Below are positions 41,395 to 48,354 of a DNA stretch of 64,000 nt, in pieces. The stretch's first letter is position 1, and each line of letters opens with the position of its first letter. Under the pieces are notes generated by a model, which ran no database searches, had not been told where the DNA came from, and worked only from the letters and a program-made list of their open reading frames with translations. The DNA lies in the NCBI RefSeq assembly GCF_947503385.1, contig NZ_CANNDO010000002.1, positions 248,001 to 312,000 of the forward strand, written 5' to 3'. This DNA is from an uncultured Tateyamaria sp. GTDB taxonomy: Bacteria; Pseudomonadota; Alphaproteobacteria; Rhodobacterales; Rhodobacteraceae. A program made the position numbers and the translations under genes.

Positions 41395-42789
41395 ATGACC
41401 GATCAGGCGACAAGACCGCGGATTGAAAAGATGGACGGGCTCGCCACCGCGGCTGCCACCATCGGGCACGAAGTTGTTGATATTGCCGGTGTCCTTGACC
41501 TTGTCGAAGAACAGGCACTTGGGCAAAGCGCAGCCCTTGGCACGTTGGAACAGCGCGCGCGCCAGATCGTCGACGCCAACAGTGCTGTGCGGGATTCGGC
41601 GGACGCGCTGCGACAAAACACGGCTGCGGTCACGCAGGATGTCACCACGTCCGGTCAACTGGTGCGCGACCTCGGTGCGCAGTCGCGTGAGGTTGCTGGC
41701 TGGGTGCACGCCTTGTGTGAGCGCAGCGATGAGGTCGGTTCAACCCTCAAAGCGGTGAAGAACAACAACAGCCAGATCGCGGCCATCGCGATGCAGGTGA
41801 ACACCCTTGCCATCAATGCCAAGATCGAGGCCGCGCGCGCAGGTGAGAGTGGTAAGGGTTTCGCGGTTGTGGCCGAAGCCATCAATGAGCTGAGCCAGAA
41901 AACCCGCAGCGCGGCAGAGCAGATTTCCGCCAATATCGAGGCGCTGACAAGCTGGATCGGAACGCTCGGGGTCGAGGCGCGCGATGTGGCCGACATCGCC
42001 TCTGATGTGATGACGCAAAGCGACGCAACCGATCAGGCCCTGAACCGCACGGAAATTGCCATCACCTCCACCGGGCGCCAGGCCGAGCGGATCGCAGAAG
42101 AAGCCGCGCGTGTGTCCGCCGCCGTCGAAGATTTCGTGCCTAATTTTTCGCAAATCAGTGCCGGAATCACAGAGACATCGAAGGGGATCGAACAGGCCCA
42201 TGGCCGCGTCCTGCGCCTGATCGACACATCCGAGGAGATGGTGCAATCGACCGCCGCTCTTGGGGGCATGACAGAGGATGCGCGGTTTATCGAACATGTG
42301 CAGCGCGTCGCCGCGCAAATCTCGGACACATTGGAACAGGCGTTGTCGAACGGGCGGCTGAGCGAGGCGCGGCTGTTCGACCGGACCTACGAACCGGTTC
42401 CCGGCACAACGCCTCAACAGGTACGCACCGGTTACGTTGACCTGTTCGACCAATTGCTGCCGCCGATTCAGGAACCGGTGCTGGCGTTCGACCCAAAGGT
42501 CGTGTTTTGCGCGGCGGTGGATGTGAACGGCTATCTGCCCACGCACAATCGCAAATTCTCGCAACCGCAAACCGACGACGCGGTCTGGAACACCGCCCAT
42601 TGTCGCAATCGGCGCATTTTCGATGACCGCGTGGGCCTCAAGGCGGGACGGAGTACTGCGCCATTCCTGTTGCAGGTCTACCGTCGGGACATGGGGGGTG
42701 GCGACTTCAAGATGATGAAAGACTTGTCTTGCCCGATCCGGGTCAATGGCAAACATTGGGGCGGCCTGCGCCTCGCCTACACGTTCTGA
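41395..42789 (+). CDS. soluble methyl-accepting chemotaxis-like protein
   Basis: 464 residues, no membrane segment and no signal peptide, so it is cytoplasmic. The central region (about 20-300) is an MCP signalling coiled coil; the hairpin tip INAKIEAARAGESGKGFAVVAEAI is at about 137-160. The C-terminal 120 residues form a distinct compact domain (DVNGYLPTHN ... NRRIFDDRVGLKAGRST ... DLSCPIRVNGKHWGGLRLAY) that resembles a Cache/PAS-like sensor. What it senses, and whether it joins an ordinary chemoreceptor array, is unknown. No che genes lie nearby. Confidence 0.88.
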   Translation: MTDQATRPRIEKMDGLATAAATIGHEVVDIAGVLDLVEEQALGQSAALGTLEQRARQIVDANSAVRDSADALRQNTAAVTQDVTTSGQLVRDLGAQSREVAGWVHALCERSDEVGSTLKAVKNNNSQIAAIAMQVNTLAINAKIEAARAGESGKGFAVVAEAINELSQKTRSAAEQISANIEALTSWIGTLGVEARDVADIASDVMTQSDATDQALNRTEIAITSTGRQAERIAEEAARVSAAVEDFVPNFSQISAGITETSKGIEQAHGRVLRLIDTSEEMVQSTAALGGMTEDARFIEHVQRVAAQISDTLEQALSNGRLSEARLFDRTYEPVPGTTPQQVRTGYVDLFDQLLPPIQEPVLAFDPKVVFCAAVDVNGYLPTHNRKFSQPQTDDAVWNTAHCRNRRIFDDRVGLKAGRSTAPFLLQVYRRDMGGGDFKMMKDLSCPIRVNGKHWGGLRLAYTF

Positions 42790-42858
42790 TCGGTAAGATG
42801 TCGCGACGGGACTGTGTTACCGTTCCCGGACGTCCCTTTTGGGTCAAACCGCAGTGTT

Positions 42859-42895
42859 AAAAAAAAAAGCCGCACATCCCGGGCGGGATGGCGGC
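42859..42895 (-). terminator. strong Rho-independent terminator of the small membrane protein gene
   Basis: GCCGCACATCCCG (42869-42881) pairs with CGGGATGGCGGC (42884-42895) with one bulged base. On the minus strand it is followed by ten T's (42868-42859). It lies about 136 nt beyond the stop of the 42-residue gene; that UTR has no convincing frame. Confidence 0.9.
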
Positions 42896-43030
42896 GTAAG
42901 GAAAGCGTCTCTTGCGCGGGACAGATCCGGATTTCCCCGCGGCAGACGGGGGACAGAGGCTGGCAGAGCCGCCGTCATGCACCAAATGGGACGGGCGCGT
43001 ATCGGATCGACGCAAGGTCGCAGGCAGAAC

Positions 43031-43159
43031 TCAGATCAGTTGAGGCAGGTGCAGACCCACCACCAGCATCACCATCAGCGCAGCCGCCCCTGCCGCATCC
43101 TGAAGCAATGTGCTCTGGCTGCGATTGGCGATGGCTTTGATCTGGCGAAGTGTGGTCAT
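43031..43159 (-). CDS. 42-residue membrane protein, putative SOS-regulated
   Basis: Not found by length-based ORF calling. 42 residues from ATG 43159: a basic N-terminus (MTTLRQIKAIANRSQST) then one hydrophobic helix (about 22-40: AAGAAALMVMLVVGLHLP). The ribosome site GGGAGATG is 9 nt upstream. It resembles a short protein I recall as recurring in roseobacters. A GAAC-N7-GAAC motif lies 60 nt upstream and a strong terminator downstream, so it looks like a regulated, independent unit between recG and the chemotaxis gene. Function is unknown; a SidA-like division brake is a hypothesis. Confidence 0.75.
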   Translation of the reverse strand: MTTLRQIKAIANRSQSTLLQDAAGAAALMVMLVVGLHLPQLI

Positions 43160-43218
43160 CTCTGCATCTCCCTCATTCGAGTTGCCGCTTTGTTCTCATA
43201 TTGCGCTGCCCGCGTAAA

Positions 43219-43243
43219 GAACTTTTTAAGAACATTTGCGAAC
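43219..43243 (-). promoter_or_regulatory. LexA (SOS) box-like direct repeats
   Basis: On the plus strand GAAC-TTTTTAA-GAAC (43219-43233) is an exact alphaproteobacterial LexA site (GAAC/GTTC-N7-GTTC). A third GAAC (43240-43243) follows with 6-nt spacing. It lies 60 nt upstream of the 42-residue gene and downstream of recG, so it controls the small gene. Confidence 0.7.
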
Positions 43244-43260
43244 TTTTTGGCATCGAGTGG

Positions 43261-48354
<5,094 letters not shown>

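Follow-up and report, generated by a model that had tools for sequence, protein, structure and literature searches.

The window, by which we mean the whole 64,000-nucleotide stretch of DNA that was analysed, carries on its minus strand an open reading frame encoding 42 residues (translation, MTTLRQIKAIANRSQSTLLQDAAGAAALMVMLVVGLHLPQLI), located 101 nt downstream of the recG stop codon (Table 1). Judging from gene arrangement, ligA and recG may form one operon with an SOS-type gene directly behind it. An earlier note on this DNA had pointed to this frame beside recG, to a good ribosome site, and to an exact GAAC-N7-GAAC site (plus-strand reading) accompanied by a third GAAC, about 60 nt upstream of the start. 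All these elements were recovered, the edge of the box lying about 60 nt from the start codon and the ribosome site corresponding to GAGGGAG. Not noticed in that note were another LexA-like box close to the -10 region, a structured RNA lying in the 3′ UTR and how widely the gene occurs across the family. On the opposite strand, a gene for a chemoreceptor-like protein with an MCP signalling domain (41395-42789, plus strand) converges on the terminator of this RNA.

Table 1. Positions of the features of the small-gene locus and of its neighbours in the window
Feature	Position	Strand	Basis or remark
Gene of the 42-aa peptide (predicted single-pass membrane protein)	43159..43031	(-)	ORF list; ATG start; stop codon 43031-43033
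recG, upstream neighbour, same strand as the small ORF	43261..45348	(-)	NCBIfam equivalog NF008164, 1117 bits
ligA, gene in front of recG	45345-47699	(-)	four-base overlap with recG start
Shine-Dalgarno-like GAGGGAG	43168-43174	(-)	sequence
O1, LexA-type operator, GTTC-N7-GTTC on the coding strand	43219..43233	(-)	abuts -35-like TTTACG; matrix 19.1
Third half-site of O1, GTTC, N6 upstream	43240..43243	(-)	sequence; conserved in orthologues
-35-like hexamer TTTACG (TTTACA or TTGACA in relatives)	43213..43218	(-)	conserved column block; putative assignment
O2, second LexA-like box GAAC-N7-CAAC near -10/TSS	43181..43195	(-)	matrix 7.33, fifth in window
Conserved structured RNA of the 3′ UTR: closing stem and inner hairpins, CUGYC motifs predicted unpaired	42897..43030	(-)	folding, covariance model
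Intrinsic terminator at the end of the transcript: GC hairpin with a bulge, followed by T10	42859..42896	(-)	sequence, folding

The distribution of the peptide was examined in 101 genomes with a permissive search (E up to 1). Matches were obtained in 55 of them, including 20/20 genomes of the same genus. Among the 59 match rows, the 50 with E up to 0.155 were fetched and the nine weaker ones left out. A profile made of 49 members then detected the peptide in 264 of 296 sampled Rhodobacteraceae genomes, taken at almost one per genus; this figure is a lower bound, since at least one genome missed by the profile (G020) has a divergent copy where the gene would be expected. Six matches were found in 289 genomes sampled across the class, the five clear ones all in Rhodobacteraceae. 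The sixth (E 0.008) lay inside a 362-aa frame and was taken as a chance match.

Orthologous peptides are 40-42 residues long, with the consensus MLxxIKxxxxRxxATLLQDAxGAAALxVMLVVGLHLPxLI, in which D21, G24 and L36 are invariant in the 49 members. Over 190 same-genus pairs, the median pN/pS was 0.20. Relative to the window copy, changes fell mainly at third codon positions (348, as compared to 169 and 143 at the others). By these substitution patterns, the peptide gene is under clear purifying selection. AlphaFold modelled the window peptide as one helix spanning residues 3-41 (mean pLDDT 89.4) and a hydrophobic segment is present in 50/50 orthologues, in agreement with the single transmembrane segment proposed in the earlier note; the product is thus, by prediction, a short single-pass inner-membrane protein. 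The basic head also proposed is a property of the window copy (net charge +3 over the first 20 residues) and does not extend to the 50-locus set, where this charge ranges from -2 to +3. The last eight residues have a net charge of 0 in 50/50 peptides. No match to the family was found in Pfam, PADLOC or PDB, nor to the window protein in NCBIfam. In PHROGs, two of the 49 members matched an unnamed family (best E 0.0042), and tblastn of the peptide against phage and plasmid collections gave no match that would indicate an origin in either.

Upstream regions were compared in 52 loci, namely the 50 protein-found orthologues and two loci (L152 and L153) found by DNA motif and so not independent of it. 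On the coding strand, the orthologues read GTTC-N6-GTTC-N7-GTTC-TT(T/G)AC(A), followed at a fixed distance by ATGAGAACAAA...CAAC. The promoter-proximal GTTC pair (O1) has an N7 spacing in 51 of the 52 loci and N6 in one; the third half-site is present in 47 (46 at N6, one at N7), and in 49 the half-site adjoining the -35 reads AGTTC. In 50/52 loci, the distance from the start of the last GTTC to the GAAC of O2 is 27 nt. N7 further on, the four bases are CAAC in 44 loci and GAAC in two, a full GAAC-N7-GAAC standing at O2 in L050 and L153; in L152, a GAAC-N7-GAAC lies one half-site upstream of O2, the conserved GAAC being common to both. With C kept in place of G in 44/52 loci, O2 is at best a weak box.

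Absence of the box upstream of orthologues had been named in the earlier note as the observation that would speak against the proposal. The box is kept, with N7 in 49 of the 50 protein-found orthologues and N6 in one. The comparison was extended to 20 more genera, chosen among the better-scoring entries of the 296-genome profile search: the N7 pair was found in 20/20, the third GTTC in 19/20 and the downstream GAAC-N7-CAAC in 20/20, and a recG-like end lay upstream of the small ORF in all 20. Shuffled upstream regions contained GTTC-N7-GTTC in 14 cases out of 10,400. The half-sites of the array start 10 and 11 bp apart, which places the array on one helix face. Since A-tracts and the -35 are conserved along with it, the array could also be adapted to RNA polymerase. 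Sites for CtrA and EcfG were weighed by eye only.

When the own genome was searched for the triple array followed by TTTAC, the small-gene site was alone at fewer than three mismatches. When 84,980 species genomes were searched for the extended motif GTTCTNAAAAAGTTCTTTAC, at least 117 stretches were returned, 80 of which were loaded. In 78 of these 80 loci, the motif stood in front of the small ORF as judged by profile score; the other two were a chance match in Muribaculaceae and a locus ending too early. Of the 80 loaded loci, 77 have recG upstream in the same orientation, at a distance of 150 nt or less in 73. Carriers of the extended motif include Ruegeria, Sulfitobacter, Roseovarius, Celeribacter, Leisingera, Rhodobacter, Rhodovulum, Gemmobacter and Paracoccus.

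The bare GAAC-N7-GAAC motif occurs at chance level: three copies are seen in the 64-kb window as compared to 1.85 expected, a number reached in 27 of 100 shuffles, and 115 genome-wide as compared to 155 for the reversed control pattern. Therefore, the case for LexA rests on conservation and on the match to the LexA boxes of the family itself. A LexA matrix was derived from 28 recA and 25 lexA sites (53 sites, 42 distinct boxes) in promoters of relatives and of the own genome's lexA. Because the training sites were picked as GAAC-N7-GAAC, GAAC is fixed by construction and the test separates boxes within that pattern. O1 was the best position of the window, with a score of 19.1 as compared to 11.2 for the next one; the two other exact GAAC-N7-GAAC sites scored 7.3 and 7.0. 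Leave-one-out scoring of the training boxes gave a median of 22.7 and a 10th percentile of 15.6, and the O1 value falls within their range. Among the 50 protein-found orthologues, O1 exceeded the 99.99th background percentile of the window in 49 and O2 in 47. The top score in the window, together with conservation in the orthologues, argues for the LexA-type site that had been claimed.

Training boxes begin with GAACA in 31 cases out of 42, with GAACG in nine and with GAACT in two, both from lexA promoters. Read in the orientation opposite to the gene, O1 begins with GAACT, as follows from the AGTTC next to the -35. In the own genome, the lexA box begins with GAACG, and boxes beginning with GAACA belong to recA, to dnaE2-like, Y-family-polymerase-like and uvrD/pcrA-like genes and to pdeM; the dnaE2, polymerase and helicase name matches are below curated cut-offs and two of these proteins are cut by the locus end. 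The contrast between GAACT in O1 and these GAACA boxes had initially raised doubt about LexA, a doubt reversed by the lexA promoters and the matrix test. By sequence, the operator resembles the family's own lexA and recA boxes, though its GAACT half is rare (2/42).

Twenty of the 30 lexA loci had promoters readable by script, the other 10 being unreadable. Six of these 20 (L273-L277, L281) contain a third GAAC at N7 or N6, and one further three-half-site promoter belongs to the lexA gene of genome G032 (L154); N7+N6 triple arrays occur in L277 and L154. The readable lexA promoters of the window's genus have two half-sites, not three. In the three-half-site lexA promoters, about 8 nt separate TTGACA from the start of the first half-site. 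A scan of 101 genomes for the triple array found 49 places, 46 at the small gene, one at a lexA promoter (G032) and two elsewhere, as compared to four for the reversed control.

In Caulobacter, LexA boxes are described as GTTCN7GTTC, and about 97% of SOS promoters have one of them (PMC12700426). By comparison, the small gene has two operators; such a pair of boxes with an additional half-site suggests that a costly product is kept tightly controlled. A study of LexA in D. shibae gives some LexA sites in its main text, which does not mention recG, and the full list in its supplement (PMC6473078).

The transcript is predicted to extend beyond the small ORF. The earlier note had described a strong dedicated terminator. 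A GC hairpin followed by a T-run does exist; it is not directly behind the ORF and stands about 134 nt after the stop codon, where it ends a structured RNA. A simple terminator scan of 42700-43400 listed two other sites and not this one. Folding of the 179 nt from the stop codon onward gave a z-score of -3.52 with the terminator in the window copy. Without the terminator, the value was -2.07 for the window copy and -2.3 on average over 50 loci, 29 UTR cores being below -2 and 21 not. Pairing of the closing stem was more favourable between own partners than between mixed ones (mean -24.4 as compared to -18.6 kcal/mol; 0/20,000 permutations; 29 loci across genera, with the window's genus represented by L001 only), single loci ranking from 1 to 28 of 29 for their own partner. 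L020, L033 and L050, in which no such RNA was seen, were left out of this test, and L021, the 5′ strand of which was cut at a wrong place, was kept.

A covariance model was built from 16 same-genus sequences. It matched 22 of 61 genomes: 19 belong to the same genus, one belongs to another genus of the family and two, matched weakly, fall outside the family. Within the genus, it found 19/20 genomes, 16 of which had trained it, with one confident match each, and once the own genome; the window RNA, itself a training sequence, scored 126.7 bits. Across 44 sources (43 loci outside the training set), 25 matches were obtained with E no higher than 1; for 10 of these, the window among them, E was below 0.001. 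In the resulting 25-row alignment (A4), which is fitted to the model and contains 15 weak rows (E above 0.001), 19 of 21 modelled pairs changed on both sides and 90.8% of cells pair, as compared to 30-44% in slid controls; 0/500 shuffles reached this level. RNAalifold recovered from the genus alignment part of the closing stem only, with almost no covariation term. L048 was left out of alignment A1, L020 out of A2, and L007, L014, L017 and L020 out of A3.

The motif CTGYC is found 182 times in 50 UTRs as compared to 40 expected. Three to five CUGYC motifs occur in 38 of 47 loci and mostly fall in regions predicted to be unpaired: the mean predicted unpaired value is 0.73 for CTGYC, 0.41 elsewhere and 0.52 for other pyrimidine-rich 5-mers, CTGYC being higher in 47/47 loci (again without L020, L033 and L050). 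The same-genus locus L020 (genome G019, AT-rich) retains both the peptide and the promoter array, and the CUGYC RNA was not found there. Rfam 15 gave three matches in the window region, all far below the gathering score, and no match in nine relatives. Overall, the comparative folding data indicate that a structured RNA is conserved in the 3′ UTR, shows compensatory changes across genera and shares the terminator of the mRNA.

The gene, its conservation and purifying selection, the LexA-type operators and the RNA structure can be read at the sequence level. On this basis, we favor the view that the locus is an unnamed SOS gene combining LexA control, a membrane peptide and a functional RNA, to which, taken together, we give a probability of roughly 55%. 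LexA bound to O1, through two or three GTTC half-sites abutting the -35, would keep the promoter off, and LexA would probably also bind O2 near the -10, helping repression. Upon DNA damage, cleavage of LexA would release the promoter. We consider such binding of LexA and induction by DNA damage to be very probable. The transcript would then yield the 40-42-residue single-pass inner-membrane peptide, which may act as a checkpoint effector holding back division, as a functional analogue of SidA. That the peptide arrests division, the function we take as the likeliest one for it, is a tentative proposal drawn from the analogy with SidA. The transcript would end in the folded RNA of about 130 nt showing CUGYC in loops and junctions, kept for stability or, most likely, as a 3′-UTR-derived regulatory RNA with several similar contact sites; the chances that this RNA acts in trans appear to be even. 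A bolder version, in which a single SOS checkpoint transcript would supply both a division-stopping peptide and a multi-site sRNA reprogramming translation after DNA damage, with its CUGYC motifs (mostly three to five) set in a conserved scaffold, as a core trait of Rhodobacteraceae, is doubtful at present.

TisB-like membrane action is the main alternative to a division brake for the peptide. TisB/IstR is a type I toxin-antitoxin system in which a LexA-controlled short hydrophobic peptide is encoded by a structured mRNA. A toxin of this kind, induced in the SOS response, would insert into the inner membrane and lower energy metabolism or cause dormancy, and the RNA would restrain or time translation. 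The control logic and the size class are the same as for TisB, and a double operator with a highly structured mRNA would suit a product that must stay off. However, the conserved structure lies 3′ of the ORF, unlike in TisB/IstR, and no antisense RNA was found in a limited scan of 42700-43400: on neither strand did this simple scan detect a sigma-70-like promoter, a weak argument for promoters of this class since the gene's own promoter was missed too. The neutral last eight residues in 50/50 peptides also speak against a TisB-like toxin, as does the presence of the gene in 264/296 family genomes, type I toxins being usually patchy in distribution. We regard this explanation as quite unlikely.

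Another explanation takes the RNA, as a multi-site sRNA under LexA control, for the principal product, to which the peptide is accessory. Strong covariation and repeated CUGYC motifs predicted unpaired are in its favor, and precedents exist in Rhodobacter sphaeroides, of the same family, where Pos19 is an sRNA carrying a small ORF and SorX derives from a 3′ UTR (PMC5036791). Pos19 is RpoE-dependent and, according to its authors, absent from other species (PMC5036791), whereas the RNA of the small gene has a LexA-type control region and occurs in many genera. The clear purifying selection on the peptide, and its persistence in L020 where the RNA was not found, make it unlikely that the RNA is the main product. 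The array might also bind a dedicated activator, for instance an OmpR-type regulator, instead of LexA. Half-sites starting 10 and 11 bp apart and abutting the -35 would fit such a protein. So would the near restriction of the triple and extended motifs to the small gene. Against LexA, N6 differs from the spacing published for its boxes, and the tie of GTTCTNAAAAAGTTCTTTAC to one gene is what a dedicated regulator would also explain. In contrast, the score of O1 with the LexA matrix points to LexA, as do the triple arrays present in some lexA promoters. CenR was rejected as a candidate, since its R. sphaeroides motif, given as TGA-N8-TGA, does not fit the array (PMC9275681). Overall, an activator in place of LexA seems distinctly improbable.

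Returning to the favored reading of an unnamed SOS gene, SOS division inhibitors differ between lineages and are found anew in each group. YneA and SosA are SOS-induced division inhibitors of Firmicutes, YneA acting through FtsW; the candidate described here would share their role, YneA and SosA being larger and having extra domains. In the literature searched, no SOS division inhibitor named for Rhodobacteraceae was found, and no report on the small gene or its RNA was recognised in the open-licence articles searched (supplements excluded). A gene present in most sampled Rhodobacteraceae, with LexA-type operators and behind recG, is a good candidate for a DNA-damage checkpoint. The structured RNA lacking a match in Rfam would in turn be a candidate SOS-induced regulatory RNA across many genera. 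The Caulobacter protein SidA is described as a 29-aa SOS-induced division inhibitor of the inner membrane, acting through FtsW and induced on LexA cleavage (PMC4211646). Both proteins are alphaproteobacterial and very small, the inner-membrane location being predicted here, and the likeness is one of size, predicted topology and control only. Unlike SidA, the small-gene product has 40-42 residues with a D/G/L pattern of its own, a fixed place behind recG and a structured 3′ RNA.

Further LexA-like boxes were noted in the own genome. Immediately at the start of the gene of PdeM, a ligase-associated DNA damage endonuclease (L087:2498-3175; C2 near 900897), stands GAACAAATCATGAAC. A 130-aa ORF (L088:2560-2952; C3 near 312861) is accompanied by GTTCTATATTTGTTC, a canonical LexA-type box; in the ORF list, the frame opens right at this box (2562), and the real start may be further in. 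This ORF, which had no match in Pfam (E 1e-4) or NCBIfam (E 1e-10), is possibly a further unnamed SOS gene. Finally, a LexA-like box, GTTCTATATATGTTC, precedes a 139-aa ORF (L091:2512-2948; C4) which, on visual inspection, resembles the C-terminal portion of the error-prone polymerase DnaE2 and is separate from the dnaE2-like gene at L073.
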